Shown piece by piece: positions 17,418 to 34,876 of a stretch of 64,000 nucleotides of DNA. The stretch spans positions 1-64,000 of the forward strand of contig JAJDCY010000013.1 in the NCBI GenBank assembly GCA_029260595.1, written 5' to 3'. The notes beneath the pieces are model-generated. The model searched no databases. It had not been told where the DNA came from and was given only the letters and a program-made list of their open reading frames with translations. The first letter of the stretch is position 1. Each line of letters begins with the position of its first letter. The DNA comes from Phycisphaeraceae bacterium. GTDB lineage: Bacteria > Planctomycetota > Phycisphaerae > Phycisphaerales > Phycisphaeraceae. The position numbers and the translations under genes were made by a program.

Positions 17418-18857
17418 TCAGGCACAAGCAATCGCTTGAGGCTCCGTAAATTCGAAGAGGCCCTCGGTGCCACCTTCGCGTCCGAACCCCGATTGTTTCA
17501 TCCCACCGAACGGGGCTTCGGGCGTTGGCCCGGCACCGGTGTTCAGGCCAACATGCCCGAATTGCAGCATGCCCGCGACCCGCTCGGCCCGTTTGGGATC
17601 CGCGGTGAACACGTACGCGGCCAAGCCGTACTCCGTCCCATTGGATCGTCGGACCGCGTCTTGTTCATCTTCGAATTCGATCACCGGCAACACCGGGCCG
17701 AAGATCTCTTCTCTCGTGCACGGCATCTCGTCGGTGACGCCGCGCAGGACAGTCGGCGGGAAGAAGCATCCGTCGTCGGCCGCGGACCAGGCTTTCCCTG
17801 CGACGCGTGTGGCACCTTGAGTCAACGCGTCGTCAACAAGCGTGGCGACTCTCTGCACCGCACCGCGGTCGATCAGTGGACCGATGTCGACGCCGTCTTC
17901 CATCCCGTTGCCGACCTTCAACCCTGATACCCGGGCAGCCACTTTCTCGATAAACGCAGCCGCAGCACTCCGCTGGATGTAGACACGGTTGGTGCACACG
18001 CAGGTCTGCCCGGCGCCGCGGAACTTGTTCTGGATCAGGTGCTCGGCCGCACGGTCGAGATCCGCATCGTCAAAAACGACAAACGGGGCGTTGCCGCCGA
18101 GTTCGAGGGATAGCTTTTTGACGTGCGGGGCGGTCGCGGCGATCAGTAGCCTGCCCACGCGCGTGGACCCGGTAAAACTGATCGTTCGAACCGCCGGGTG
18201 TTCACACAGCACACGGCCGATCTGGTCAGCGTGCCCCATCACCAGGTTGACCTTGCCCGCCGCAAGCCCGACCTGGTCAAGCAGTGAAAACAGAGCGACC
18301 ATGCTCAACGGGGTTTTCTCCGCGGGTTTGATCACGCTGGGGCAATCCGCGGCCAGCGCGGCGGAGAGCTTCTTAGCGATCATCGCTAGGGGGAAATTCC
18401 AGGGTGTGATCAACCCCACGACGCCGGCTGGCCGGTGGTGGACCGTCCACGTGTGATTCTTGGGTTGCTCCTGTAGGTGCCTGGTCTTGAGCTTTTCAAT
18501 ATGAGTTGCACAATAGCGGTAGAATCCTGCCGCGTATTCGGCTTCGGCTTGAGCCTCTTTCCATGGCTTGCCGTTCTCAAGCGTGATGATGCGCCCCAGC
18601 TCTTTCTTGTGTTCAATGTGCAAGTCGGCGACCTGGTTCAGCCATTGTCTGCGCTGCTCGATCGGCGCAGGTTGGGCCAATGCGGATTGCGCCGACTCGA
18701 CCGCGAGACGGGTTTCGTCGTGACCCATCAGGGGTACCTTGGACAAGGTCTCGCCGGTAGCGGGGTTGATGACCGCGAGTGTCTGGCCCGACTGGGCCTG
18801 AGCCCAGTCGCCATTGATAAATCCTTGAACGTGTTCGAGCAGTGGGGATTCAATCAT
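17418..18857 (-). CDS. gabD: NAD(P)-dependent succinate-semialdehyde dehydrogenase
   Basis: 479 residues, full length for the aldehyde dehydrogenase family. Motifs: TPWNFPLAMIAKKLSAALAA, the glycine motif FTGSTRVGR, the general base Glu in LSLELGGNAPFVVFD, the catalytic Cys286 in GAGQTCVCTNR (with a second Cys two residues later, as in GabD proteins), and EIFGPVLPV near the end. The closest family is GabD/SSADH, which oxidises succinate semialdehyde to succinate, the last step of GABA breakdown. This fits the GABA transaminase gene on the other side of the regulator. A GGGAGAG lies 10 bases before the ATG. The specificity is inferred from sequence and neighbours. Confidence 0.88.
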   Translation of the reverse strand: MIESPLLEHVQGFINGDWAQAQSGQTLAVINPATGETLSKVPLMGHDETRLAVESAQSALAQPAPIEQRRQWLNQVADLHIEHKKELGRIITLENGKPWKEAQAEAEYAAGFYRYCATHIEKLKTRHLQEQPKNHTWTVHHRPAGVVGLITPWNFPLAMIAKKLSAALAADCPSVIKPAEKTPLSMVALFSLLDQVGLAAGKVNLVMGHADQIGRVLCEHPAVRTISFTGSTRVGRLLIAATAPHVKKLSLELGGNAPFVVFDDADLDRAAEHLIQNKFRGAGQTCVCTNRVYIQRSAAAAFIEKVAARVSGLKVGNGMEDGVDIGPLIDRGAVQRVATLVDDALTQGATRVAGKAWSAADDGCFFPPTVLRGVTDEMPCTREEIFGPVLPVIEFEDEQDAVRRSNGTEYGLAAYVFTADPKRAERVAGMLQFGHVGLNTGAGPTPEAPFGGMKQSGFGREGGTEGLFEFTEPQAIACA

Positions 18858-18901
18858 CTATCAGTCTCTCCCAGTCAGGACGCGTGGTCATCGCGTGTTA
18901 A

Positions 18902-19495
18902 TTAGAATGTCGGTGGCGTGCACGCGCTGATCACCTCACACGGATCGTCGGCGATGTTGCGGAACCGATGTGGGAGTCGGCTGTCGAAGCTGTACGCGTC
19001 TCCCTCGCACAGAACCCGGGTCTGGCCCGCCACCGTGACCTCGACCCTGCCCTTTATGACCACACCCGCTTCCTCGCCGGGGTGTGACAGCATCATCTTG
19101 CCCGTGTCGCCTCCAGGCGCATACCGCTCGTGCAGGACTTGTAGCTTCATGCCGGGCCGGCCTTTACCCACGAGTCGCAGCGAGACCTTGCCACCGGCGA
19201 TCTCTTTTAGTTGGTTAGCGGAGTGAAACACCTCGCCACAGTGGCGCGGATCAAAACTAAAGAACTCCGCCATCGACATCGGGAACCCGTCGAGCACGTT
19301 CTTGAGGGATGAGACAGACGGGCTGACGCGGTTTTGTTCGATCAACGAGATCGTGCCGTTGGTGATGCCCGCACGCCTGGCCAGCTCGCGCTGAGACAAT
19401 CCATAGAGTAGGCGCAGCGACTTGAGCCTTGGCCCGACCTCCGCCGTTGTCATGCTGCCCCCGCCAGCTCGCTTGCTCGTGGACGCTTTAGCCAT
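18902..19495 (-). CDS. XRE-type helix-turn-helix regulator with C-terminal cupin (PuuR-like)
   Basis: 197 residues: an HTH_3 domain (about residues 20-75, RLKSLRLLYGLSQRELARRAGITNGTISLIEQ) followed by a cupin_2 domain (about 115-190, HPGEEAGVVIKGRVEVTVAGQ, SFDSRLPHRFRN). This is the architecture of PuuR, which represses putrescine utilisation genes in E. coli and is released by the substrate. It lies between the dehydrogenase (44 bp downstream) and the divergent GABA transaminase gene. The intergenic region has a 15-bp inverted repeat that is a good operator candidate. TACATT ends six bases before the ATG, so the gene may be leaderless and autoregulated. The ligand is unknown; the neighbours suggest a polyamine, amino acid or conjugate. 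Confidence 0.88.
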   Translation of the reverse strand: MAKASTSKRAGGGSMTTAEVGPRLKSLRLLYGLSQRELARRAGITNGTISLIEQNRVSPSVSSLKNVLDGFPMSMAEFFSFDPRHCGEVFHSANQLKEIAGGKVSLRLVGKGRPGMKLQVLHERYAPGGDTGKMMLSHPGEEAGVVIKGRVEVTVAGQTRVLCEGDAYSFDSRLPHRFRNIADDPCEVISACTPPTF

Positions 19496-19545
19496 ACGTT
19501 GAATGTATTAAACTGCTGCGGACATGTCGAGCACGTTAGATCCAC

Positions 19546-19651
19546 GAAAACCGCGCATCATTGCGTTGCGCGTCGATTATTCTAAAATGACATTCCGATC
19601 GGACGCCACCGCAGCCGTCGGATAAATTGAGCGCGGTGATTCGCGGTTTTC
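19546..19651. promoter_or_regulatory. Divergent promoter region with a 15-bp inverted repeat (probable operator pair)
   Basis: GAAAACCGCGCATCA at 19546-19560 recurs on the opposite strand at 19637-19651 as GAAAACCGCGAATCA, 14 of 15 bases identical, with centres 91 bp apart. One copy lies upstream of the regulator gene, the other just before the ribosome binding site of the transaminase gene, flanking a likely transaminase promoter (TAAAAT at 19582-19587). This spacing would suit two regulator dimers, possibly with DNA looping. Confidence 0.6.
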
Positions 19652-19662
19652 AGGAGTCCAGC

Positions 19663-20979
19663 ATGGCGGACAACGAAGAGTTGCTCAAACGCAGAGAGGC
19701 CGTTACGCCCCGGGGAATACCGCGCGCCACAACGGCCACCGTTGAGTCGGCCAGCGGCGCGCTGTTGCGCGACCATGAGGGCCGTGAGTTAATCGACTTC
19801 ACAGGAGGGATCGGGGTGATGAACGCGGGGCACTGCCAACAGGCGGTCGTCGACGCGATCCATCAGCAGGCGAAGAAGTTGTTGCACATCGGCATCCATG
19901 TAGCCACGTATGAGCCTTATATAGCCCTGTGTGAAAAGCTGGTGCGGCTTCTGCCCCACGGACCACAGACCAAGGCCATGCTCGTCAACAGTGGCGCCGA
20001 GGCGGTTGAGAACGCGGTCAAAATCGCCCGTCAAGCCACACAGCGTGACGCGGTGATTTGCTTCACAGACGGGTTTCACGGGCGGACGTTAATGGGCATG
20101 TCTCTGACCTCGAAGGTCGGCTACAAAGCCGGGTGCGGGCCGTTCGCCCCGGAGGTTTATAGGCTGCCGTTCCCCAATTACTACCGGCACGGAGACGGGT
20201 TGGATGAAGACGCGTTCGGCAATCGCGAGTTGGTACGGCTCAAGCAAGCCTTCTCAAATGTAGTGTCCCCCCAGGACGTTGCGGCGATGGTGATCGAGCT
20301 TGTTCAGGGCGAGGGAGGGTTCAACCCGGTCCCGCGGGCTTACCTGGAAAAGTTGCGGCAGCTCTGTGATGAACACGGGATCATGCTCATATTTGACGAG
20401 GTGCAGACCGGGTTCTGCCGCACCGGTCATTGGGGCGCTTTCCAGCACTATGAGGTCACGCCCGACTTGTCGACCTGGGCCAAGTCGATGAGTGGCGGTC
20501 TGCCGATCGGCGCGGTTGTCGGCAAGACCCACGTCATGGACGCCGCTCAGCCCGGCACCATAGGAGGTACCTTCGGCGGCAACCCGGTTGCCTGTGCCGC
20601 GGCGCTGGCGACGATCAAGATCATGGAAGAACTGGACCTCAACAAGCGGGCCCAACAGATCGGCAGTCGTGTCCGCGAGCGGTTCTTGACATTGAAACAA
20701 AAATGTGAGCTCGTCAGTGATGTTCGGGGCTTGGGTGCGATGATCGGAGTGGAATTGGTCTTAGACGGTGACCCCACCAAACCCGCGACGGGTTTGGTCA
20801 AGCAAATCATCGCCGAATGCGTGAGTAACGGTTTGATTCTGATTGTCGCGGGCACATACGGAAACGTGATCCGTGTGTTGTCGCCGCTCGTCATCACGGA
20901 CGACCAGCTCGATCGTGGGTTGGACATCATTGAATATCAGGTGCTCCGCCACGCACCGACACCCTCCAGAGTAGGTTAA
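19663..20979 (+). CDS. gabT: 4-aminobutyrate (GABA) aminotransferase family, class III
   Basis: 438 residues from the ATG at 19663, which has CAGGAGT six bases upstream; the earlier in-frame ATG at 19627 has no such site. Class III aminotransferase motifs: HEGRELIDFTGGIGVMN-like N-terminal region, NSGAEAVENAVKIAR (phosphate binding), FTDGFHGRTLMGMSLT, the Asp in MLIFDEVQTGF, and the PLP lysine Lys274 in TWAKSMSGGLPIG. It most resembles GabT/PuuE, which move the amino group of GABA to 2-oxoglutarate giving succinate semialdehyde, the substrate of the divergent dehydrogenase. First gene of a five-gene plus-strand operon; the next gene starts 46 bp later after a short GCCCT/AGGGC hairpin. Other omega-amines (putrescine, 5-aminovalerate) are possible substrates. 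Confidence 0.9.
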   Translation: MADNEELLKRREAVTPRGIPRATTATVESASGALLRDHEGRELIDFTGGIGVMNAGHCQQAVVDAIHQQAKKLLHIGIHVATYEPYIALCEKLVRLLPHGPQTKAMLVNSGAEAVENAVKIARQATQRDAVICFTDGFHGRTLMGMSLTSKVGYKAGCGPFAPEVYRLPFPNYYRHGDGLDEDAFGNRELVRLKQAFSNVVSPQDVAAMVIELVQGEGGFNPVPRAYLEKLRQLCDEHGIMLIFDEVQTGFCRTGHWGAFQHYEVTPDLSTWAKSMSGGLPIGAVVGKTHVMDAAQPGTIGGTFGGNPVACAAALATIKIMEELDLNKRAQQIGSRVRERFLTLKQKCELVSDVRGLGAMIGVELVLDGDPTKPATGLVKQIIAECVSNGLILIVAGTYGNVIRVLSPLVITDDQLDRGLDIIEYQVLRHAPTPSRVG

Positions 20980-21025
20980 CCGTATGCCCTATCAGGGCGC
21001 ATGCCATAAGAAAGTGATTGATTAG

Positions 21026-21973
21026 ATGAAACCTTTCGCCATCGCCGGACTACAACTGAATGTGACCGCTACGCAAGACAACTTACCGCATCTGTCCGCC
21101 CGACTGGCGTACCTGATGCAGGTATTCCCCTGGGTACAGATGGTCGTGTTCAGTGAGCTTGCGGCCTACGGCGCATGGACCGGCAAAGCCGAGGCGCTGC
21201 CCGGCCATTCCGAGAAAGTCTTTCAGGACATGGCCGCCTATCACAAGCTGTGGCTTGTCAACGGCTCGGTATTCGAGCTCAAGGACGGCAAGACGTTCAA
21301 CACCGCCTCGGTAATCAGTCCCGACGGGGCCGTGGTGACCCGGTACCGGAAGATGTTCCCGTTTCAGCCCTATGAGATGGATGTACAGCCCGGAGATGCG
21401 TTTTGTATTTTCGATGTCCCGGAGGTAGGCCGGTTCGGGCTGTCGATCTGCTACGACATGTGGTTCCCCGAGACCTCCCGAACACTCGCGGCGATGGGGG
21501 CCGAGGTCCTGCTTCACCCAACCATGACCGCCACGATCGACCGCGACGTGGAACTGGCAATGGTCCGAGCCACCGCCGCGATGAACCAGTGTTTCGTTGT
21601 AGATGTCAACGGCGTCGGGGACGGTGGTATCGGCAAGTCGAGCATCGTCGGCCCGGCCGGCGACGTCCTTTATCAAGCAGGCTCAAGTGAAGAACTGATC
21701 CCTATCGAACTCAATTTTGATCGTGTACGCCGCAGCCGCGAGGTCGGTGTTCGCGGGCTGGGCCAGCCGCTCAAGAGTTTCCGCGACTGCCAAGTCGATT
21801 TCACCGTGTATCAGGGTGACCCCAAGGCACGGGAGTATCTGCAAACACTGGGCCCGTTGGCCAAACCGCTGCGGGGATCGCGGGCCGGCATCGGACCACC
21901 ACCGCTCGCTCAGCCTGCACCACCGCCCGTTGAGCCGGCCACCGCTCAACCCTTACCCGGAGAAGCGCGATGA
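21026..21973 (+). CDS. Carbon-nitrogen hydrolase (nitrilase superfamily amidase)
   Basis: 315 residues. The Glu-Lys-Cys triad of the nitrilase superfamily is visible: Glu44 (VVFSELAAYG), Lys109 (TRYRKMFPFQP) and Cys142 (GLSICYDMWFPE). These enzymes hydrolyse amide or carbamoyl C-N bonds; relatives include AguB (N-carbamoylputrescine amidohydrolase) and aliphatic amidases. The C-terminus ends in a Pro-rich tail (about residues 288-312). The stop overlaps the start of the decarboxylase gene as ATGA, so they are translationally coupled. Given the neighbours it probably removes or splits an amide or carbamoyl group on a polyamine-type intermediate; the substrate is not known. Confidence 0.85.
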   Translation: MKPFAIAGLQLNVTATQDNLPHLSARLAYLMQVFPWVQMVVFSELAAYGAWTGKAEALPGHSEKVFQDMAAYHKLWLVNGSVFELKDGKTFNTASVISPDGAVVTRYRKMFPFQPYEMDVQPGDAFCIFDVPEVGRFGLSICYDMWFPETSRTLAAMGAEVLLHPTMTATIDRDVELAMVRATAAMNQCFVVDVNGVGDGGIGKSSIVGPAGDVLYQAGSSEELIPIELNFDRVRRSREVGVRGLGQPLKSFRDCQVDFTVYQGDPKAREYLQTLGPLAKPLRGSRAGIGPPPLAQPAPPPVEPATAQPLPGEAR

Positions 21974-24807
21974 TCGGTAAACCCGAAGGGCTGTGTCTTG
22001 GCCAATCAAGGAACCCATCGACCGGCACGCTCTACAACGTTCCCCGGTTGCGTACCGACATCTGGAACCGCATCCGCGATAGCGCCCGGCGGCTGCGGAA
22101 GGTTGCCGACCGGAGTGACGAGGCGACCGATTTGAAGCGTATCTGTACCGAGGGATTTGAATTCCTCAAGCTGATCGAGCCCTACAACGCCTTCCCCGGC
22201 AAGCTGGTGCTTGAGCAGGTCCGTCGCCATTTCGAACGTGGCAAGTACGAACCGTTTGCACGACAGGTGATCCGGCTAGTTCGCCTGATGAACACCAACG
22301 CCTACCGCAAGATCGACCTGACCACATCGAACCTCAACGACTATTCCGATCTGCTGAACATCTCCAACCTCAGCGAGGCGATCCACAGCCGGATCCGCCA
22401 GGAGCGGCGGCCTTACTTCGAGGTCCTGGTCGTGGACGACCTGAGCACTCAGGAGGAGATGGACCTTCGGGTACACATGCGAGAGCTTCGCCAACCGGAG
22501 GACAAGTTCATCTATGAGGTGGTAGTGGTGCCGACCTTCGAAGATGCCCTGTTGGCGAGCATGAACAATTTTAATTTAGAGACCTGCGTCATCCGAAACA
22601 CCTTCCCGTTCGCATCACCCAACCAGATGGAGATGCTCCATGCCATCTACGCGGTCCTTGAGACGACCGCGAAAGCCATGGCCGCCATGATGCCCGGCGA
22701 GCGGACGATGGTCCTGGGGCGTGTGTTGAAACGACTGCGGCCGGAACTCGACCTGTTCCTCGTCACCGACGCTCCGGTCGAGGATGTCGCCGGCGAACCC
22801 ACCCGAAACTTCCGCCGGGTGTTCTACCAGCAGGACGACTACCACGACCTGCACCTGAGCATTCTGAAGGGTTTGCACGAGCGGTATCAGACGCCCTTCT
22901 TCGACGCTCTTCGGAGTTACAGCCAGAAGCCAACGGGCATGTTTCATGCGCTGCCGATCTCCCGCGGCCGGACGATCGCCAAGAGTCACTGGATCAAAGA
23001 CATGGGCCGGTTCTACGGGAAGAACATCTTCCTAGCCGAAACCTCGGCCACCACAGGCGGCTTGGATTCACTGCTACAGCCGACGGGATCGCTCAAGAGC
23101 GCACAGGAACTGGCCGGACGCGCGTTCGGTTCTCGTCACACCTATTTCGTCACCAACGGGACGTCGACCGCGAACAAGATCGTGATGCAGGCACTGATCC
23201 GCCCGGGGGATATCGTGCTGCTGGCCCACGACTGCCACAAGTCTCACCCCTACGCGGTGATCCTCGCCGGCGCGATGCCGGTCTACCTGGATGCCTACCC
23301 GCTAACCGAGTATTCGATGTACGGGGGTGTTCCGTTGCGTTCGATCAAGAAGCACCTGCTCGAGCTCAAACGCGCCGGGAAGCTCGATCGCGTGCGCATG
23401 CTCCTGCTGACCAACCTTACCTTCGACGGGATCACCTACGACCCGATCCGCATCATGGAAGAAGTCCTGGCGATCAAGCCGGACATGATCTTTGTATGGG
23501 ACGAGGCCTGGTTCGCGTACGGGCGGTTCTCGCCTGTCCTTCGGCGGCGCACCGCGATGGAGTCGACGCGTCGGCTGCTCGAACGGCTGCGTAGCGACAC
23601 CTACCGCGAGGAATACCGCGCCTGGAAAACGCGCTTCGATGAGGCCGATCCAGACGACGACGCGACGTGGCTGGATCAACGGCTGATGGCCGAGCCGGGC
23701 CGTGCACGGCTGCGGGTCTACGCGACCCAGTCCACGCACAAGACACTCACGGCATTGCGTCAAGGGTCGATGATCCATGTCCACGACCAGGACTTCGAAC
23801 AACATGTCCAGGAGGTATTCCACGAGGCGTTCATGACGCACACCTCGACCTCACCGAACTACCAGATCCTCGCGTCGATGGACGTCGGCCGGCGGCAGGT
23901 GGAGTTGGAGGGATACGAACTAATCGAGAAGAGCATCGAGCTTGCGATGACCGTGCGGGAGCGCATCACATCCGACGATCGCCTGCAAAAGTATTTCCGC
24001 GTGCTGGCACCGGAGGACATGGTCCCCAGCGCCTACCGACCCAGCGGGCTGGAGTTTTACTTCGACCCCGAGCGCGGGTGGAGCAACATGGAAGACGCGT
24101 GGCGCCAAGACGAGTTTGTGCTCGACCCGACGCGCGTGACCCTGCACATCGGCCGAACCGGGATGGACGGCGACACCTTCAAGAAGCTCCTGATGGACCG
24201 CTACGACATCCACATCAACAAGACCTCCCGCAACACCGTGCTATTCCTGGTGCACATTGGCATGACGCGTGGGACCGTTGCGCACCTGATCAAGGTGCTC
24301 ACGCAGATCGCTCAAGACCTCGACGACCGGCTCGAGCACCAGAACGCGGCGCATCAGAAAGCCCACGAGCGCAAGGTCGCCTCGCTAACAGAAGAACTGC
24401 CACCCTTACCAAACTTCAGCCGATTCCACCGGGCGTTTCTTCCCACGCGCGACAGCACCACGCCGGAGGGCGACATGCGCAGTGCGTTCTTCCTGGCCTA
24501 CGACGACATCGCCTGTGAGTTCCTGATGCTTGATGGGGCCATCAAACGTGCCGTCGAGTCCGGCCGAGAGGTGGTCTCGGCCAGCTTCGTGACTCCTTAT
24601 CCACCGGGGTTCCCGATCCTTGTGCCCGGACAGGTGCTCAGCACCGAGATCCTTACTTATCTCAAAGCCCTGGACGTCAAAGAGATTCACGGCTACGACC
24701 CGGCCTATGGCCTGCGCGTGTTCACCGAAGCGGCGTTGGAACAGCTAGAACAAACCGAACCTCCCGCCCGAACGTCAATCCCCCGACCCCAAGGAGTCAC
24801 CGCATGA
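21970..24807 (+). CDS. Orn/Lys/Arg decarboxylase family PLP enzyme (large form)
   Basis: 945 residues, the size of the large prokaryotic inducible-type amino-acid decarboxylases with extra N-terminal sequence. The first roughly 310 residues hold a receiver-like wing region (FEVLVVDDLSTQEE). The fold-type I PLP core starts near SHWIKDMGRFYGKNIFLAETSATTGG and includes FVTNGTSTANKIVMQ, HDCHKSHPYAVILAG, FVWDEAWFAYGRF (the PLP-pyridine Asp) and the PLP lysine Lys591 in TQSTHKTLTALRQG. The ending LVPGQVLSTEILTYLKAL is like the family's C-terminal domain. These enzymes decarboxylate arginine, ornithine or lysine, giving agmatine, putrescine or cadaverine. Start and stop overlap both neighbours as ATGA, marking a coupled operon. 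Which amino acid is used cannot be read from sequence. Confidence 0.88.
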   Translation: MIGKPEGLCLGQSRNPSTGTLYNVPRLRTDIWNRIRDSARRLRKVADRSDEATDLKRICTEGFEFLKLIEPYNAFPGKLVLEQVRRHFERGKYEPFARQVIRLVRLMNTNAYRKIDLTTSNLNDYSDLLNISNLSEAIHSRIRQERRPYFEVLVVDDLSTQEEMDLRVHMRELRQPEDKFIYEVVVVPTFEDALLASMNNFNLETCVIRNTFPFASPNQMEMLHAIYAVLETTAKAMAAMMPGERTMVLGRVLKRLRPELDLFLVTDAPVEDVAGEPTRNFRRVFYQQDDYHDLHLSILKGLHERYQTPFFDALRSYSQKPTGMFHALPISRGRTIAKSHWIKDMGRFYGKNIFLAETSATTGGLDSLLQPTGSLKSAQELAGRAFGSRHTYFVTNGTSTANKIVMQALIRPGDIVLLAHDCHKSHPYAVILAGAMPVYLDAYPLTEYSMYGGVPLRSIKKHLLELKRAGKLDRVRMLLLTNLTFDGITYDPIRIMEEVLAIKPDMIFVWDEAWFAYGRFSPVLRRRTAMESTRRLLERLRSDTYREEYRAWKTRFDEADPDDDATWLDQRLMAEPGRARLRVYATQSTHKTLTALRQGSMIHVHDQDFEQHVQEVFHEAFMTHTSTSPNYQILASMDVGRRQVELEGYELIEKSIELAMTVRERITSDDRLQKYFRVLAPEDMVPSAYRPSGLEFYFDPERGWSNMEDAWRQDEFVLDPTRVTLHIGRTGMDGDTFKKLLMDRYDIHINKTSRNTVLFLVHIGMTRGTVAHLIKVLTQIAQDLDDRLEHQNAAHQKAHERKVASLTEELPPLPNFSRFHRAFLPTRDSTTPEGDMRSAFFLAYDDIACEFLMLDGAIKRAVESGREVVSASFVTPYPPGFPILVPGQVLSTEILTYLKALDVKEIHGYDPAYGLRVFTEAALEQLEQTEPPARTSIPRPQGVTA

Positions 24808-26396
24808 GCCAGCGTCCATCGACTGTTGGAGCCAAGCAGGGCAAGGCCAAGCCGCCGGCCAGCGCGGGGGCCCCAGCAACCACGAAAGAACCCGCCAAGA
24901 CCGGGCTGAAGCGACGCTCCGCCGGGCCAAAACCCGTGCTGCGGGGGATCTCCGATATCCGCCGATTCTTCTTCCGCAACGAAGTACCGATCTACTTCAT
25001 CAGTGCCACCAATTTCAACCTGCTGGGGATTGACGAGTGGGTTCGAAACTTCAAATACATCAACTACATCGATTGCTTTGACGGCGCGCACCCCAACCTG
25101 TTTTCACCGGCCGAGGTGCCACACCACCCGTTCACCTGCATCGAGGACATCAACAACTACCTGCTCGAACACAAAGAAGTCGTTGATTTTATTCAGGATC
25201 GCTCGGTTCATGGTGTCGTAGGCAAAGCTGTATTCCTAATGTTCGATGAACAGACCGAGAAGCTGTGCCGTCAGTTGGGTTTGGAAGTCTGCTTCCCGCC
25301 GGCGAGCCTGCGTAGCAAGATCGACGACAAGATTTCCGCCACGCGAATCGCCGACAAGGCCGGAATCGCATCCGTACCCAATGTCCTGGCCAAGGTCGGC
25401 AGCTACGCCAAACTGCGCACAGCATCAAGAGCGCTGGGCGAAGATTTGGTTGTGCAGACCGCTTTCGGGGATTCCGGCCACACCACGTTCTTCATCTCGA
25501 ATGAACAGGATTGGCAGAAGCACGCCAAAGAAATTATCGAGGCGCCCAAAGTCAAGATCATGAAGCGGATCCAATGCCGCGGCGCGGCGCTGGAAGCCTG
25601 CGTCACCCGACACGGGACGATCGTCGGCCCGCTGATGACCGAACTGGTCGGGTTTAAGGAGCTCACGCCATACCGCGGTGGGTGGTGCGGCAACGAGGTG
25701 GCGTCCGAGGTGTTCTCCAGCGACGTACGCGAGAAGGCCAAGCAGATCACCATTGCGTTCGGCCAACAACTGAAAAAAATGGGTTACCGCGGTTACTTTG
25801 AACTAGATTTTCTGCGAGACCTGGACACCGACGAGCTTTACTTGGGGGAGGTCAACCCCCGCGTAACCGGCGCCAGCGCGATGACCAACCTGGCTTCATT
25901 CGCCCACGCCGACGCCCCGTTATTCCTGTTCCATCTGTTGGAATGGGCGGGCGTGAATTATGAACTCGATACCGACGAGATCAACACACGCTGGGCCGAC
26001 CCGGAAAACATTGACGGCTGGGGCCAACTCGTCCTCAAGCACACGCAAGACAGTGTGTCGCTAGTGACCGACGCCCCGCGGTCCGGGGTGTGGCAGATGG
26101 AAAGCGACGGCCGGGTGGTCTTTCATCACGTGCAGACCCACCGGCGCACCGTCGCCAATGAGTCCAGGGCGTTCTTCCTGCGAATCACCAAACCCGGCGA
26201 TTACTTCTATGAAGGAGCCGACCTGGGTATCCTGATCACGCCCGGCCGGCTCATGACCGACGACTTCCAGCTCAACGACCGGGCCAAGGCTTGGATCAAA
26301 GGCATCCGGGCACACTACAAGACCCGCCCGGTTGATCCGGCAAAAGCCGCTGTCGAAGCGCCCGCGGTCGAGGTCGGTAATTTTAAGATAATGTAG
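24804..26396 (+). CDS. ATP-grasp domain ligase (biotin carboxylase-like)
   Basis: 530 residues. A Pro/Ala/Lys-rich N-terminal tail of about 45 residues is followed by a domain with VPIYFISATNFNLLGIDEWV, then the ATP-grasp fold: LRSKIDDKISATRIADKAGI, the lysine-bearing LGEDLVVQTAFGDSGHTTFFI and the metal-binding YFELDFLRDL / LYLGEVNPRVTGASAMTN (Glu and Asn ligands). It lacks the biotin carboxylase C-terminal pattern, so biotin-related activity is unlikely even though similar proteins are often called biotin carboxylase. ATP-grasp ligases join a carboxylate to an amine, which here could be gamma-glutamyl-type protection of the amine made by the upstream decarboxylase. That role is inference. 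It overlaps the decarboxylase by four bases and precedes the Ntn-hydrolase gene by eight. Confidence 0.82.
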   Translation: MSQRPSTVGAKQGKAKPPASAGAPATTKEPAKTGLKRRSAGPKPVLRGISDIRRFFFRNEVPIYFISATNFNLLGIDEWVRNFKYINYIDCFDGAHPNLFSPAEVPHHPFTCIEDINNYLLEHKEVVDFIQDRSVHGVVGKAVFLMFDEQTEKLCRQLGLEVCFPPASLRSKIDDKISATRIADKAGIASVPNVLAKVGSYAKLRTASRALGEDLVVQTAFGDSGHTTFFISNEQDWQKHAKEIIEAPKVKIMKRIQCRGAALEACVTRHGTIVGPLMTELVGFKELTPYRGGWCGNEVASEVFSSDVREKAKQITIAFGQQLKKMGYRGYFELDFLRDLDTDELYLGEVNPRVTGASAMTNLASFAHADAPLFLFHLLEWAGVNYELDTDEINTRWADPENIDGWGQLVLKHTQDSVSLVTDAPRSGVWQMESDGRVVFHHVQTHRRTVANESRAFFLRITKPGDYFYEGADLGILITPGRLMTDDFQLNDRAKAWIKGIRAHYKTRPVDPAKAAVEAPAVEVGNFKIM

Positions 26397-26404
26397 ACCC
26401 TCTG

Positions 26405-27397
26405 ATGCCCACAACGTTTCGTTCGATCCAAGAGTTTGAACCCGGGCAGAAGTGGGCACGCCTATTCGAAGAATTTTGGCCCGGCTACCGGCGGTGGTAT
26501 TTGCAGGAGGGTGAGCAGGCCAGTCCCGGCTACCTCACGTGTCTGACCGCCCTGCGGGAACACATGCAGGAACTGGTTCCCACCTATGAAAAGCTGGTGC
26601 AACTCGCCGGTGGTGGCGACACAGCCGCGCGGTTCCTGAGCCTGTACCGCCCCACCCCTTACCTGACCGGCTGTTCGCAAGCCGTCTGGACCCGAGACGC
26701 GCCCTTGCTGGTCCGAAACTACGACTACAGCACGAACCTTTGGGAAGCGGTCATGCTGCACACCGCGTGGAACGGCCGACACGTCATCGCGATGAGCGAT
26801 TGCCTCTGGGGTGTCCTCGACGGGATCAACGAATCGGGATTAGCGGTGTCGCTATCGTTCGGAGGCAGCCGCGCGGTGGGTGACGGTTTCGGTATCCCGC
26901 TGGTATTGCGTTATATCCTCGAATTTTGCGAGGATACCGCACAGGCCGTCGAGGTGCTTCAGCGCGTCCCCTGCCACATGGCCTACAACGTCACGGTCCT
27001 CGACGCGACGGGGCAGTTTGCCACGGTGTGGGTCGGTCCCGACCGACCCGCCACCGTCACGAATCAGCCTGTGGCGACCAACCATCAAGAGTCAGTGGCG
27101 TGGGCCCAACACGCGCACGCCACATCCACACTCGACCGCGAAAAAGCGCTCTACGTAAACCTCAACGACCCCCATGAAAACCGGCATCGCTTCGTGCAGC
27201 GCTTCCTCGAACCGCCGGTTTACGCCCTTAACCACGACCGGGGCTGGGGGACGCTGTACACCGCCACATACGACCCCATCCATCGAACGGCGACATGCCT
27301 ATGGCCGGGCCGGGAACTGTCTCAAACATTCACCGGTTACAGTGAGCAGACGTTAACCCTGACTTACCCCGTGACTGACCACCATCGATTGATGTGA
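26405..27397 (+). CDS. C45-type Ntn-hydrolase (acyl-CoA:6-aminopenicillanate acyltransferase-like)
   Basis: 330 residues. The segment YLTGCSQAVW puts a Gly-Cys at residues 89-90, where C45 enzymes cut themselves to expose the nucleophilic Cys; residues 1-89 would be the pro-segment or alpha chain. PLLVRNYDYS and GVLDGINESGLAVSLSFGG are further family motifs, as is VATNHQE. Relatives hydrolyse or transfer acyl groups on amide bonds (penicillin acyltransferase, ceramidase- and bile-salt-hydrolase-like enzymes). As last gene of the operon it could remove an acyl group that the ATP-grasp enzyme attached. No signal peptide, so cytoplasmic. A 7-bp hairpin starts at the stop codon. Confidence 0.82.
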   Translation: MPTTFRSIQEFEPGQKWARLFEEFWPGYRRWYLQEGEQASPGYLTCLTALREHMQELVPTYEKLVQLAGGGDTAARFLSLYRPTPYLTGCSQAVWTRDAPLLVRNYDYSTNLWEAVMLHTAWNGRHVIAMSDCLWGVLDGINESGLAVSLSFGGSRAVGDGFGIPLVLRYILEFCEDTAQAVEVLQRVPCHMAYNVTVLDATGQFATVWVGPDRPATVTNQPVATNHQESVAWAQHAHATSTLDREKALYVNLNDPHENRHRFVQRFLEPPVYALNHDRGWGTLYTATYDPIHRTATCLWPGRELSQTFTGYSEQTLTLTYPVTDHHRLM

Positions 27398-28082: not shown

Positions 28083-28445
28083 ATGACCCAATCAACCACT
28101 ACATTCCAACCCGGGCAACGCGTGTTGGTCACGCAACAAATCCCCCAGCGGGACGAGTCGTGGTCGACGCGGATCGAAGGAACCGTGGTCCGCTACGAAC
28201 AAGCCAAGACCGGGTCGTGGTACGCCCACTCCAAAGACGACAAGCTCTGGCTCGATCGGCTGGTGCTAAAAACGGACGACGGCGAGATCGTCGACTGCTC
28301 GCTCGACGAATACACAAGCATCCAGACCCTCGCCCAGCCCGTGGCGGATGAGTCAGAGGCGGCGACGCCGGATGCGGATGATGCGGAAAACCAACAGCCC
28401 GCAGACGACCCAGATCCCGCAGCCGACACAGCCGCTACGCCGTGA
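28083..28445 (+). CDS. Small hypothetical protein with acidic Pro/Ala-rich tail
   Basis: 120 residues; I do not recognise a named family. Residues 1-80 look like a small beta-rich domain (FQPGQRVLVTQQIPQRD, IEGTVVRYEQAKTGSWYAHSKDDKLWLDRLVLKT), of the kind found in SH3-like or translation-associated folds, and the last 40 residues are an acidic, low-complexity Ala/Asp/Pro tail. CAGGAGAC sits nine bases before the ATG, a good ribosome binding site for this genome, which supports it as a real gene. Transcribed away from the tRNA-Ser gene and followed by a hairpin, so probably monocistronic. Similar short proteins occur in other planctomycetes as far as I recall, but that is not checked here. Confidence 0.75.
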   Translation: MTQSTTTFQPGQRVLVTQQIPQRDESWSTRIEGTVVRYEQAKTGSWYAHSKDDKLWLDRLVLKTDDGEIVDCSLDEYTSIQTLAQPVADESEAATPDADDAENQQPADDPDPAADTAATP

Positions 28446-28448
28446 TCC

Positions 28449-28474
28449 GATGCATCGTTCATCGGCGATGCGTC
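28449..28474 (+). terminator. Hairpin downstream of the small hypothetical gene
   Basis: GATGCATCG and CGATGCGTC form a 9-bp stem with one G-U pair and an 8-nt loop, four bases after the stop codon. There is no U-run, so it is either a weak terminator or a 3'-end structure separating this gene from the sigma-54 peptide array. Confidence 0.4.
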
Positions 28475-28613
28475 GAATCCACACTGCCTGGCCCCTCCGC
28501 GACCGTCACGATACCCAGACCGCACAAACCCACCTCGGCTCTGTGACAACATAGCTCGCCCAAACACCTTTTGACACGCTGCTTACAGGCGTATTCGCGG
28601 TCTCTGATCGCGC

Positions 28614-28629
28614 TGGCACAGCCGTTGCA
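28614..28629 (+). promoter_or_regulatory. Sigma-54 promoter of micropeptide gene 1
   Basis: TGGCAC-AGCCG-TTGCA: the -24 GG (28615-28616) and -12 GC (28627-28628) are separated by exactly 10 bases, as sigma-54 requires. The predicted start of transcription is near 28640, two bases before the ATG. A GCTTAC 33 bp upstream is shared with copy 2. Confidence 0.75.
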
Positions 28630-28641
28630 ATTTCGTCGGGC

Positions 28642-28746
28642 ATGACGCAACTCGCCCACACGACGGTCGGCCTCATCACGACCAACCGCTCGTTCAGCGT
28701 CAAGACGATCGGCATGGCCGTGCTGACGTTCATCGCGATGTGCTAG
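28642..28746 (+). CDS. Micropeptide 1 of the sigma-54 array (34 aa)
   Basis: Reads MTQLAHTTVGLITTNRSF then SVKTIGMAVLTFIAMC and a TAG stop. It shares length, the R-S-F-x-V-K-T-I core, a hydrophobic C-terminal third and the terminal Met-Cys with copies 2 and 3, although many codons differ (for example TCG against AGC for Ser, ACG against ACC for Thr). That pattern, protein kept while DNA changes, argues for real coding. There is no ribosome binding site; the sigma-54 promoter's GC lies 14 nt before the ATG, so the message would be leaderless. The peptide is cationic in the middle and hydrophobic at the end, so it could sit in a membrane or be exported. No known family recognised. Confidence 0.6.
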   Translation: MTQLAHTTVGLITTNRSFSVKTIGMAVLTFIAMC

Positions 28747-28832
28747 AGCGGATGATCCTGAGTCCCCCGCGTAGTCACAGCCCCGCACAGATGTCGCGCC
28801 GCAACAACGTATGCGCTTAGGTTGTTGGCTTC

Positions 28833-28909
28833 GCGGCGTTAATCGTTACAACCCCCCTTGCGACCCCGACCCGACGCCGCCATCTAATTAATTTTGAAAC
28901 AATCGCTTA
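28833..28909 (+). promoter_or_regulatory. Candidate enhancer (activator-binding) blocks of micropeptide gene 2
   Basis: GCGGCGTTAATCGTTACAAC (28833-28852) starts 104 bp, and AAACAATCGCTTA (28897-28909) 40 bp, upstream of the -24 element. Both occur before copy 3 at exactly the same distances. Each contains AATCG followed by TTA, perhaps a shared half-site. Position fits a bacterial enhancer-binding protein acting on the sigma-54 promoter. Confidence 0.55.
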
Positions 28910-28936
28910 CGAGATATTTTCTCGGCACGTACGCAA

Positions 28937-28952
28937 TGGCACAAACCTTGCA
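28937..28952 (+). promoter_or_regulatory. Sigma-54 promoter of micropeptide gene 2
   Basis: TGGCAC-AAACC-TTGCA with GG (28938-28939) and GC (28950-28951) exactly 10 bases apart. Predicted transcription start about 28963, two bases before the ATG at 28965. Confidence 0.8.
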
Positions 28953-28964
28953 ATAACCCTTAAC

Positions 28965-29066
28965 ATGACACGCATCGCCAACAACATCACGATGATCGCC
29001 GCCAGCCGCAGCTTCGGCGTCAAGACCATCGCCACCGCCATCATGATCTTCGCCGCGATGTGCTAG
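28965..29066 (+). CDS. Micropeptide 2 of the sigma-54 array (33 aa)
   Basis: Reads MTRIANNITMIAASRSF then GVKTIATAIMIFAAMC and TAG. Net positive (Arg3, Arg15, Lys20) with a hydrophobic C-terminal helix of about 13 residues and a final Cys. The amino-acid sequence is identical to that of copy 3, and the DNA differs at one silent position. No Shine-Dalgarno; translation would start two bases from the 5' end. Possible roles are a membrane-active peptide, an exported signal or pheromone precursor, or a small membrane-protein regulator; the sequence does not decide. The last residue being Cys raises the chance of a disulfide or lipid link. Confidence 0.65.
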   Translation: MTRIANNITMIAASRSFGVKTIATAIMIFAAMC

Positions 29067-29158
29067 ACCGAAACACCCGCGATCGGTACGCCAGATCGCT
29101 GATCGAAAGCCTCATGTTGTCGCACCGCCACCACAGGGTGGGCGGGCGCGATCGGTTT

Positions 29159-29235
29159 GCGGCGTTAATCGTTACAACCGCCCTTTCGCCCCCGGCTTAA
29201 CACCAGCCTCTAATCACTTGTAAAACAATCGCTTA
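29159..29235 (+). promoter_or_regulatory. Candidate enhancer blocks of micropeptide gene 3
   Basis: The same two blocks as before copy 2, GCGGCGTTAATCGTTACAAC at 29159-29178 and AAACAATCGCTTA at 29223-29235, again 104 and 40 bp upstream of TGGCAC. Flanking sequence differs, so the blocks and the spacing are what is kept. Confidence 0.55.
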
Positions 29236-29262
29236 AGCGGTAATTTTGCGTTGTGCTCGCAA

Positions 29263-29278
29263 TGGCACGAGCATTGCA
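29263..29278 (+). promoter_or_regulatory. Sigma-54 promoter of micropeptide gene 3
   Basis: TGGCACG-AGCA-TTGCA, a full match to the consensus, GG (29264-29265) and GC (29276-29277) 10 bases apart. Predicted start of transcription about 29289; ATG at 29291. Confidence 0.82.
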
Positions 29279-29290
29279 ATAACCCTTAAC

Positions 29291-29392
29291 ATGACACGCA
29301 TCGCCAACAACATCACAATGATCGCCGCCAGCCGCAGCTTCGGCGTCAAGACCATCGCCACCGCCATCATGATCTTCGCCGCGATGTGCTAG
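29291..29392 (+). CDS. Micropeptide 3 of the sigma-54 array (33 aa)
   Basis: Encodes the same peptide as copy 2 (one silent difference, ACA for ACG at the Thr of NNITM). The GC of its promoter is again exactly 14 bases before the ATG. It is the last copy; 71 bp further on the VOC-protein gene ends from the other strand. No terminator hairpin is evident between, so copies may be read through. Confidence 0.65.
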   Translation: MTRIANNITMIAASRSFGVKTIATAIMIFAAMC

Positions 29393-29463
29393 ACCGCACC
29401 ACCGCTCGCAACTCGACTCAACTCACCCAGCCTCGCGGCAAACCCCCTAAATTAACAACCCGC

Positions 29464-29913
29464 TCAGCACCCCGGTGTCTTAGCCGGGTCGAAGTCGGCC
29501 ACGTTCGTCGCCAGCGTCCAGCCGTACCCGTCCGGGTCCTCGACGGTCCCCATGCGGTCACCCCAGAACATAGTCTCCGGCTCGGTCTTGGCGGTGCAAC
29601 CGGCGTCGACGGCCCGCTTGAACGCCGCGTCGACGTCGTCCACATAGAAGTACAGCCCGAGCGGGCACTCCGCACCGCTGTTGGCCGGGGTCTTGGTGGT
29701 GCAGCCGAACGCCCCTTCCTTGCCGAACATGATCACCATGTCATGCCAACGGACCTCACCATGCACCGGCTGCCCATCGGGGCCGGGCATCGTCATGCTT
29801 TTTTCAAACCCGAACGCCTTCTCATAGAAGTCAGCCGCGGCCGCGACATCTCGGACAGTCAGGTACGGGGAAAGCCAAGGCATGTTGGGCGGGCACGGGG
29901 GTCGTTTGGCCAT
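29464..29913 (-). CDS. VOC family (glyoxalase/bleomycin-resistance-like, PhnB-type) protein
   Basis: 149 residues forming one vicinal-oxygen-chelate unit pair: SPYLTVRDVAAAADFYEKAFGFE at the start, VRWHDMVIMFG, the glyoxalase-type LYFYVDDVDAAFKRAVDAG, and EDPDGYGWTLATN at the end. This is the PhnB/YbaJ-like single-domain form, whose substrates are usually unknown. GGAGGATC lies 4-11 bases before the ATG, one of the best ribosome binding sites in the window. It stands alone between the micropeptide array and rimO. Confidence 0.85.
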   Translation of the reverse strand: MAKRPPCPPNMPWLSPYLTVRDVAAAADFYEKAFGFEKSMTMPGPDGQPVHGEVRWHDMVIMFGKEGAFGCTTKTPANSGAECPLGLYFYVDDVDAAFKRAVDAGCTAKTEPETMFWGDRMGTVEDPDGYGWTLATNVADFDPAKTPGC

Positions 29914-30077: not shown

Positions 30078-31625
30078 TCATGGTGCGGCGTCGGCTAGGC
30101 GGTTGGGTGAGTTGACTGTGATGACCGGAAGCGCGACCGACCCACCCGCCGACTGCGACTGCGGCTTGGCGATCAGGTCGTAGCCGTCCGCTTCGACGAC
30201 TTCGCAGCGGACCAACTCGCCCGGCGATAGCGGCTCATCGCTGTCGATGTAGGTCACGCCGTCAATCTGCGGGGCCTGGTGGTACGCACGGCCGACGTAG
30301 CGGTTGTCCTCGCTATCGATCCCGTCAACCAGGACGTCGCAAGTTGCTCGGTCATCAGCCAATCGTTCGTTGCGGGCAAAGGCGACTTGTTGCTGAGCGA
30401 GCATCAGTTCGTCAAGGCGTTCGACGACGACCTCGGGGTCGACGGCCTGACCGTCGGTGTGCTGGGTGCCGGCCGGGGTGCCGGGCTCGGGTGAGTATGG
30501 GAACACCCCCATGGCCTCAAACCCGGCGGCGCGGACGAAATCGACCAGCTCGCGGTGGTCGGCGTCGGTTTCGCCGGGGTACCCGGTGATAAACGTGGTG
30601 CGTATGGCGATCCCATTGACCCGTGTGCGCAGCTTGCCGAGCAGCGTCTCGATCAGCGAACGCGACGTCCGCCTGCGCATCTGATCGAGTATGCGGTCGT
30701 TGATGTGCTGCAGGGGCATGTCGATGTACTTGACGACGCTGGACAGCCTGGCGATCGCGTCGATCATCGCGTCGGTGAACGTCGATGGGTACGCGTACAT
30801 CAGCCGCAGCCAACCGGCGCCGGGGCCGAGGGCGGACGCGGCTTCGCGGTCGAGTTCTTCGAGCAAACCGGTCAGACCCGGTGCATATCCGATGTCGTCC
30901 CCGTAGCTGGTCGTGTCCTGGCCGATCAGGTTCAGCTCGAACGCCCCGTCCGCGATCAGCTCGCGCGCCTCGGCCAAGATGCGCTGCGGCGGCTTGGACC
31001 GCATCTTGCCGCGGATCGACGGGATCGTGCAAAACGAGCAGTTCTGATTGCACCCCTCGCTGACGCGCAGGTAGGCGTAGTGGCGCGGGGTCAGGCGCAG
31101 GCGGCCTGTGTCGTCCTCGTGATACCCGACAGGCGCCGCATCGGGTCGCGACTGGCGTGCGATCGCGTCGTTGGCGGCGATGCTCGAATAGACCGGCAGC
31201 GGTGTGTTGCTCGTGCTAGTCGATGAAGTATCTGATTGATCGGCGCCCGTCACGGCGCACACGATGCGGTCGCGATCGAACACACCGATCAGCGCATCAA
31301 CTTCGGGACACCAATCGAGCAGCTTGGCGCGGTGGCGCTGCACGAGGCAACCGGCCACGATCAGCCGCTTGCACCCGCCGTCGGATTTGAACCCGGCGGC
31401 GCGGCGGATCTCGTCGAGCGATTCCTGCTTGGACGCTTCGAGGAACCCGCAGGTATTGATGACGATCGCATCCGCTTGGGACTCATCCGAAACAGGCACA
31501 AGCCCGCCCTCGGCGAGCAGGCCGAGCATCTTTTCGGAGTCAACCAGATTCTTCGGGCACCCCAGGCTGACCAGGGCGACCGTCGTGATCGGGTCGGCTT
31601 GCGATGGAGGTGCGTTGTGGGTCAT
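30078..31625 (-). CDS. rimO: Ribosomal protein S12 methylthiotransferase RimO
   Basis: 515 residues. RimO is a radical-SAM enzyme that methylthiolates the conserved Asp of ribosomal protein S12. Visible: the UPF0004 domain (VALVSLGCPKNLVDSEKMLGLL, VINTCGFLEASKQES, VAGCLVQR with its three Cys), the radical-SAM CxxxCxxC in SEGCNQNCSFCTIPSIRG, the LNLIGQDTTSYG motif, and a C-terminal TRAM domain (LVDGIDSEDNRYVGRAYHQAP). It is about 70 residues longer than usual, largely because of a Ser/Thr-rich insertion between the two N-terminal domains (around SDTSSTSTSNTPLP). Faces the Kelch gene across a 118-bp divergent gap. Confidence 0.94.
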   Translation of the reverse strand: MTHNAPPSQADPITTVALVSLGCPKNLVDSEKMLGLLAEGGLVPVSDESQADAIVINTCGFLEASKQESLDEIRRAAGFKSDGGCKRLIVAGCLVQRHRAKLLDWCPEVDALIGVFDRDRIVCAVTGADQSDTSSTSTSNTPLPVYSSIAANDAIARQSRPDAAPVGYHEDDTGRLRLTPRHYAYLRVSEGCNQNCSFCTIPSIRGKMRSKPPQRILAEARELIADGAFELNLIGQDTTSYGDDIGYAPGLTGLLEELDREAASALGPGAGWLRLMYAYPSTFTDAMIDAIARLSSVVKYIDMPLQHINDRILDQMRRRTSRSLIETLLGKLRTRVNGIAIRTTFITGYPGETDADHRELVDFVRAAGFEAMGVFPYSPEPGTPAGTQHTDGQAVDPEVVVERLDELMLAQQQVAFARNERLADDRATCDVLVDGIDSEDNRYVGRAYHQAPQIDGVTYIDSDEPLSPGELVRCEVVEADGYDLIAKPQSQSAGGSVALPVITVNSPNRLADAAP

Positions 31626-33991: not shown

Positions 33992-34294
33992 ATGGAAATT
34001 ACTGTGACGGGGAGACACATGGAGATCACCGAGCCGATCCGCCAGTATGCCCAAGAGAAGGTGGGCAAGCTGCCACGCTACTTCGACCGCGTGCAGGCCA
34101 TCGACGTGATCGCCGTGAAGGTGGACCGCAACCACGAGCTCGAGGTGATCGTCCGTGCCGAAAAAACCGATCCATTCATCTGCAGGATCACCGGCCCCGA
34201 CCTTTACGCCTGCATCGATGAAGCCGTCAACAAGCTCGAACGGCAACTGACCGACCACAAGGACAAGCTGCGCAACCGAAAACACAATGTCTAA
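33992..34294 (+). CDS. hpf: Ribosome hibernation-promoting factor, short form
   Basis: 100 residues covering one HPF/RaiA domain: MEITVTGRHMEITEPIRQY, the VKLxRYFDRVQAIDVI-like KLPRYFDRVQAIDVIAVKV, then DLYACIDEAVNKLERQL and a basic tail. It binds the 30S decoding centre and shuts down idle ribosomes. Short-form proteins lack the dimerising C-terminal domain. GGAG lies nine bases before the ATG. In proteobacteria hpf sits between rpoN and ptsN; here the hpf-ptsN pairing is kept (ptsN 105 bp on) without rpoN in the window. Confidence 0.93.
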   Translation: MEITVTGRHMEITEPIRQYAQEKVGKLPRYFDRVQAIDVIAVKVDRNHELEVIVRAEKTDPFICRITGPDLYACIDEAVNKLERQLTDHKDKLRNRKHNV

Positions 34295-34399
34295 GAGCGG
34301 CGGGCCACGGTGCCGGGATCGGGCGGCGGCGATGGGGTATGATGCCCGGCCGCGGTAAGTAGTCGGTGGGTGACACTATTCGAGAAGGCAATCTGACTT

Positions 34400-34876
34400 A
34401 TGAAACTCCTTGATTTTATCCGGCCCGAAGCGATCGTTCCGCAGTTGGCCAGCACCGATCGTGACGGGGTGCTCAGCGAGTTGGTCGACGGGCTGATCAA
34501 AGCCAAAGCCGCCCCCCCGGAACTGCGCGACGAGCTGCTCGCCATGATCATCGACCGCGAGACCAAGGGGTCCACCGGTTTTGGCAAAGGCGTGGCCGTC
34601 CCCCACGTCAAGCACCCCACGGTCCAGACCATGGCCGCCGCTGTCGGGATCAGCCAGGCCGGCGTCGATTTCAACGCGTTAGATAAGCTGCCGGTATTCA
34701 CGGTCGTGTTGCTGCTGAGCCCCGAGAACCAGCCCGACCAACACCTGCAGGCGATGGAAAATATCTTCTCGAACCTGCAGAAGGACGCATTCAGACGGTT
34801 CCTACGCCAGTCGACCACGGCTGAGCAGGTGCTGGACACCCTCCAGGACGCCGACAGCCAACACCTGTATGGATAG
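34400..34876 (+). CDS. ptsN: PTS IIA-like nitrogen-regulatory protein PtsN
   Basis: 158 residues of the EIIA-fructose/Ntr type. The phosphorylated histidine is His69 in GFGKGVAVPHVKHP, and RETKGSTGFG upstream is part of the family signature. PtsN receives phosphate from HPr/NPr and controls processes such as K+ uptake and sigma-54-linked genes rather than carrying a sugar. It lies between hpf and an HPr gene, with no sugar permease nearby, so a regulatory nitrogen-PTS role fits. AGAAGG lies 10 bases before the ATG. Confidence 0.93.
   Translation: MKLLDFIRPEAIVPQLASTDRDGVLSELVDGLIKAKAAPPELRDELLAMIIDRETKGSTGFGKGVAVPHVKHPTVQTMAAAVGISQAGVDFNALDKLPVFTVVLLLSPENQPDQHLQAMENIFSNLQKDAFRRFLRQSTTAEQVLDTLQDADSQHLYG

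Follow-up and report, generated by a model that had tools for sequence, protein, structure and literature searches.

The window analyzed here comprises bases 1-64000 of contig C13 (134,775 nucleotides, nt) of a Phycisphaeraceae bacterium, whose assembly totals 2,876,150 nt in 40 contigs and is 88.12% complete. It contains three micropeptide frames in tandem on the + strand, each closely following a candidate sigma-54 promoter. Copy 1 (28642-28746) encodes 34 amino acids ending in Met-Cys and followed by TAG, while copies 2 (28965-29066) and 3 (29291-29392) each encode 33 amino acids followed by TAG and specify the same peptide, with one silent base between them. An earlier interpretation of this locus, made from the letters and frames without database searches (hereafter the sequence-only reading), had described just these frames of 34, 33 and 33 codons, and all of this is in the sequence. 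Public protein data hold one 34- and one 33-amino acid predicted protein for these frames (P0002 for copy 1, P0001 for copy 2), with this contig as their sole source.

The sequence-only reading had also placed a full sigma-54 promoter before each frame, which we recovered as three perfect boxes of the -24/-12 type, i.e., with zero mismatches to the pattern TGGCACR-N4-TTGCW: TGGCACAGCCGTTGCA at 28614-28629, TGGCACAAACCTTGCA at 28937-28952, and TGGCACGAGCATTGCA at 29263-29278, all on the + strand. The three boxes lie within 665 nt, and the distance from box start to ATG is precisely 28 nt in each case; TGGCAC and TTGCA are constant, while the bases between them vary. Whole-genome scans yielded three perfect boxes, all at this locus, and since the reversed pattern, used as a control, also gave 1 perfect match, the number of boxes is unremarkable by itself. 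Across 51 genomes of the family, 177 perfect boxes were found versus 88 for the reversed control, so that roughly one in two such sites may be due to chance, and the case for these promoters is one of repetition, spacing, and conservation rather than of counts. At one mismatch, the genome itself has 26 sites (the reversed pattern gives 74 when at most one mismatch is allowed), and inspection of these 26 by eye on both strands revealed no further recognizable micropeptide. Overall, the locus is real, well-formed, and unusual.

Next, we compared the copies with one another. The R-S-F-x-V-K-T-I core and the Met-Cys end noted in the sequence-only reading are invariant in all three copies, the shared end extending to A-M-C, and 16 of 33 aligned residues are identical between the peptides of copies 1 and 2. 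Copies 2 and 3 lie within a tandem repeat of 248 nt on the + strand (28830-29403, with units at 28830-29077 and 29156-29403; spacing 326, identity 86%). Within this repeat, differences are strongly depleted in the frame: 1 of 102 frame bases differs, silently, compared to 33 of 146 elsewhere (Fisher p 1e-7), and no other change occurs between the -12 element and a point 4 nt beyond the stop codon. TGGCAC is likewise constant, while 3 bases between the two box elements differ. This pattern could result from either purifying selection or gene conversion. Assembly duplication was considered as a source of copies 2 and 3 and rejected, because they differ at 34 of 248 bases.

The two peptides are cationic (net charge +2 and +3) with a mean hydropathy of 0.91 and 1.05 and a hydrophobic last third, in line with their previous description as cationic/hydrophobic. 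AlphaFold2, run on a three-row alignment, predicted a single helix over residues 2-33 (mean predicted local distance difference test score, pLDDT, of 78, and 86-89 from residue 21), which, given the shallow alignment, is a helix prediction and no more. Comparison to Pfam, NCBIfam, and PHROGs gave zero matches, including to the known toxin families in Pfam and NCBIfam, in agreement with the earlier impression that no described family resembles these peptides.

Codon usage and the pattern of change between copies suggest that the three frames are likely coding. GC content at third codon positions (GC3) reaches 33/34 in copy 1 and 32/33 in copy 2 (97%), compared to 57% GC in the flanks and a GC3 of 74-83% in six neighboring genes. 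Relative to 30 window genes hand-picked from a mechanical list of open reading frames, codon adaptation is 0.87 and 0.93, values equaled by ~2.5% and 0.24%, respectively, of the 1236 overlapping 33-codon stretches from these genes. Replacements between copies 1 and 2 are conservative: when the 32 observed changes were placed at random, the BLOSUM sum reached the observed one in 0.6% of 20,000 trials (p 0.006), and the proposed frame ranks highest among the six frames with a BLOSUM score of 90. Finally, the indel separating copy 1 from copies 2 and 3 is 3 nt long, which fits coding.

Sigma-54 geometry usually fixes the transcription start (+1) relative to the box. Applied here, it predicts +1 at 28640, 28963, and 29289, i.e., 2 nt upstream of each ATG. 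A Shine-Dalgarno-like motif was found in 0/3 copies, versus 15/30 genes of the window. PMC5397173, whose sample includes one planctomycete species, describes signs of leaderless and/or RPS1-type initiation as a tendency of species from phyla in which Shine-Dalgarno genes are few, Planctomycetes among them. At the other end of the message, strong hairpins 3' of the copies were considered and rejected (z -1.36, -0.41, and -0.50), and one terminator-like site was detected, at 29228-29241 between copies 2 and 3, 162 nt past the stop codon of copy 2 (shuffled sequences average 1.4 such sites).

A candidate upstream activator site, GGCGTTAATCGTTACAAC, is located at 28835-28852 (+ strand), -128 to -111 from the predicted start of copy 2, and an identical 18-mer is found at 29161-29178 (+ strand), an equal distance before copy 3. 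Elsewhere in the genome, this 18-mer has 0 matches with up to 2 mismatches and one with 3.

The explanation we favor, tentatively and at slightly less than an even chance, is that these are three independent genes encoding a single small peptide, predicted to form an inner-membrane helix, and that a sigma-54 activator would turn on all of them at once. Specifically, an enhancer-binding activator bound near -120 would open each promoter, and RNA beginning ~2 nt before the AUG would yield a near-leaderless message read without a Shine-Dalgarno sequence. Three gene copies and optimal codons would then provide much peptide fast; the predicted lack of a leader together with these codons suggests control at transcription and a large output. 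The middle of the peptide would be retained at the inner face by its Arg and Lys residues, and its hydrophobic last third would insert into the membrane, presenting the terminal Cys. The least certain step is the last one, in which the peptide would have a modulating effect on a partner in the membrane or on the membrane as such. Small single-helix membrane regulators share the size, predicted helix, and regulated promoter seen here, but this locus is set apart by having three genes in tandem, a Cys at the end, a message predicted to be near-leaderless, and no family match. Small membrane peptide genes are a known kind, and the novel point is that, in each of three tandem copies, a sigma-54 box immediately precedes the start codon. 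We regard as unlikely, while giving it some weight, the wider claim of a new class of switchable micropeptide genes whose sigma-54 promoters are joined straight to the start codons, in which an activator would turn on three near-leaderless messages and flood the envelope with a lineage-specific helix ending in Met-Cys.

Several results weigh against this explanation. Residue identity between copies 1 and 2 is borderline, being reached by random placement of the changes in 5% of trials (p 0.05), and an antisense frame comes second by BLOSUM score with 80 versus 90. Codon adaptation in other frames spans 0.36-0.77, and one antisense frame, at 0.74 and 0.77, lies within 0.59-0.80, the span of the 30 genes. 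Changes between copies 1 and 2 are distributed 12/9/11 over the three codon positions, without an excess at the third, and the ratio of non-synonymous to synonymous substitution rates (dN/dS) between these copies is ~1.0 by NG86 and 0.43 by LWL85. The sequence-only reading had seen evidence for coding in the use of different codons for the same residues; coding is indeed likely, but such changes affect only 3/16 of the shared residues (T2, S17, and T22), 13/16 using the same codon, and, with dN/dS ~1 by NG86, this point is weaker than it was presented. No homolog that would permit an independent test of selection was found in the collections searched. The hydrophobic tail comprises 13 residues past the Lys, few for a complete span of the membrane, and because several weak matches to the peptide fall in signal-sequence-like stretches (see below), it may act as a signal sequence instead of an anchor. 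Upstream, the 18-mer GGCGTTAATCGTTACAAC is absent before copy 1. Lastly, no rpoN was detected in this incomplete assembly: PF04552 had no match, and the best match to PF04963 scored 14.4 bits, below the cut-off. Taken together, the observation in the sequence-only reading is confirmed and its interpretation is partly supported.

The missing rpoN can be examined against its prevalence in the lineage. Of the 51 family genomes, 44 have PF04552, as do 32 of the 33 near-complete ones. The genome also encodes three strong PF00158 matches with GAFTGA, plus two weak ones; a PF00158 match alone says little, because 14/14 control genomes also give matches. In the one region examined for a further target, without a chance control, TGGCACCGGGATTGCC, two mismatches from the box pattern, lies 59 nt upstream of a frame that we take to be flgB. 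From the lineage prevalence, the three GAFTGA activators, and the position of TGGCACCGGGATTGCC before this flgB-like frame, we conclude that rpoN is probably located in the unassembled part of the genome. Genes for hpf and PTS IIA-Ntr often accompany rpoN, and an hpf-like and a PTS IIA-Ntr-like gene (named by eye) are adjacent at 33992-34876 of the window, in this assembly without an rpoN match.

To place the box-to-start spacing in a broader context, we considered perfect-box loci in relatives. The survey of family perfect boxes for tandem sets covers the matches listed; further tandem boxes may occur among the remaining matches of genomes G073, G074, and G030. Among 30 loci examined, 24 had some mechanical frame downstream of the box, and 5 had an ATG 18-35 nt from the box start, which opens a long frame in 2. 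These are L206, with an ATG 27 nt past the box start and a 400-codon frame, and L217 (~1501, genome G027), with a perfect box and an ATG 29 nt from the box start that opens a 157-codon ABC-ATPase-like frame. Judging from these two loci, close box-to-ATG spacing may occur elsewhere in the family and is perhaps not unique here. Two side observations concern box-like sites: on contig C38 (L038 and L039, ~1501), repeats of inverted sequence such as ACACTGCTTGCAAGCAAGCAGTG imitate a sigma-54 box, and at L025 (~1501), CGGCACGCCGGTTGCA, one mismatch from the box, lies on the - strand shortly before a frame that by eye resembles htpX, a possible sigma-54 target.

The search for homologs in relatives, set beforehand as a check, found no relative in any collection. 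With a single sequence as query, 8 of 61 genomes had a match at E ≤ 10 (expectation value), counting the genome itself, the others being at 0.27 or worse. With a profile, 24 of 51 family genomes, its own included, gave a match at E ≤ 1 (best other 0.011), and so did 12 of 400 genomes sampled from the larger set for the order at E ≤ 0.05, again counting its own (best other 0.007). Zero matches were confirmed among 57 stretches of viral contigs or 50 stretches of genome contigs, and 5.77 billion proteins returned matches from this contig only. These searches depend on shared words or on a two-sequence profile, and could miss a strongly diverged relative. A profile rescan of 186 loci, leaving out those of the genome itself, gave a best match at E 0.008 (L048). 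We reread 13 weak matches (11 foreign matches from the order, L004, and L048): 0/13 end in Met-Cys and 0/13 have a box-like site within 200 nt upstream. The matches at L190, L192, L194, L196, and L004 lie on the - strand. Four weak matches from other genomes (L045, L190, L193, and L194) are parts of frames of 183-403 amino acids and, by eye, resemble signal peptides near the start. No published account of a comparable locus was found in the portions consulted of a mainly openly accessible literature.

On one side, the locus is flanked by a gene for a 120-amino acid protein (28083-28445) that has no Pfam or NCBIfam match and is matched in 47 of 51 family genomes, its own counted; this protein appears from its distribution to be a conserved family of unknown function. 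On the other side lies a glyoxalase-fold gene on the opposite, - strand (29464-29913), with a gene for a RimO-like protein nearby (30078-31625), whose nine best named matches are 62-67% identical and come from genomes labeled Phycisphaeraceae, Phycisphaera, or Planctomycetota, which places the genome among the planctomycetes close to that family. Further away, a run of genes at 17418-27397 resembles, by eye, those for aldehyde dehydrogenase, a cupin-helix-turn-helix regulator, aminotransferase, and nitrilase-like, pyridoxal phosphate (PLP) decarboxylase-like (945 amino acids), ATP-grasp, and C45-like proteins, possibly a polyamine or small-molecule pathway.

A stand-alone signal-sequence-like peptide, i.e., the precursor of a secreted pheromone or a leader of the lipoprotein type that is cleaved ahead of the final Cys, is a real rival, if an improbable one: the charged middle, hydrophobic run, and Cys resemble a signal sequence, as do the stretches matched at L045, L190, L193, and L194. 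A lipobox has A, G, or S before the Cys, whereas here this residue is Met in all three copies, and no receptor, peptidase, or exporter was recognized by eye among the neighboring genes. Pheromone precursors of the SHP/ComS type are short, have a hydrophobic C-terminus, and act with Rgg/ComR-type receptors; with 20-35 amino acids, a charged part, and then a hydrophobic C-terminus they look similar, but the present locus differs in its sigma-54 boxes, its Met-Cys end, and the lack of a recognizable Rgg/ComR-type receptor or exporter adjacent to it. A type I toxin array, in which a small hydrophobic peptide encoded by tandem genes would harm the cell's own membrane when freed from antisense RNA, would fit the predicted single helix, the positive charge, and the length of 33-34 amino acids. 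The Ldr, Ibs, and ZorO toxins are likewise small, hydrophobic predicted helices, and ZorO is also tandemly duplicated (PMC8309996). According to PMC8309996, type I toxin messages are repressed by antisense RNA, and that of ZorO additionally by structure in its 5' leader, whereas the leader predicted here is 2 nt; membrane type I toxins are, moreover, described there only in Proteobacteria and Firmicutes. The interval 28440-29520 contains a single sigma-70-like site, which lies on the + strand where copy 3 begins, and it yielded no antisense one, with the caveat that planctomycete promoters may differ. Since a leader is predicted to be lacking and the codons are optimal, the fit to a type I toxin is poor, and with sigma-54 boxes, no antisense promoter found, no family match, and a different phylum setting this locus apart from Ldr, Ibs, and ZorO, we hold such an array improbable.

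Two further alternatives would make the peptide incidental or defunct. Qrr regulators are several related small transcripts made from sigma-54 promoters, and the present repeats could similarly produce sibling regulatory small RNAs (sRNAs) of the Qrr or GlmY/GlmZ style, with the frames incidental. The conserved block of ~106 nt begins at the predicted +1, and there is the terminator-like site between copies 2 and 3, but this site lies 162 nt past the stop codon instead of directly past the block and is no more than shuffled sequences provide. Folding of the block is barely stronger than that of shuffled sequence (z 0.04 and -1.07), which makes it unlike a sigma-54 sibling sRNA; Rfam gave matches at copies 2 and 3 at E 4 only, far below the gathering score, and the codon bias and 3-nt indel fit coding. 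In PMC4211561, a number of sibling sRNA pairs are arranged in tandem, and the title of one reference assigns a sigma-54 promoter to GlmY, while the table of that review lists Qrr and GlmY/GlmZ as distal, in contrast to the tandem arrangement, conserved frame, and strong codon bias found here. We therefore give sibling sRNAs a low probability as well. Alternatively, the repeats of promoter and frame might be a relic without a working product, in line with the lack of any relative in the collections searched, the missing rpoN, and a dN/dS of ~1 by NG86. Against a relic, copies 2 and 3 are nearly constant in both frame and boxes, while the rest of the repeat differs at 33/146 positions (three of them between box elements); gene conversion could have the same effect, yet would have to end at these borders, and we consider a relic very improbable.

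If the favored explanation holds, i.e., three sigma-54-controlled genes for one small membrane peptide, they would represent a very young gene family under tight on/off control and with high output, in which a sigma-54 promoter is joined to the AUG almost without a leader. This would add a small membrane peptide to a phylum for which, by PMC8309996, no membrane type I toxin was described, and would offer a clean case in which to test how orphan micropeptides originate and become wired to a regulator.
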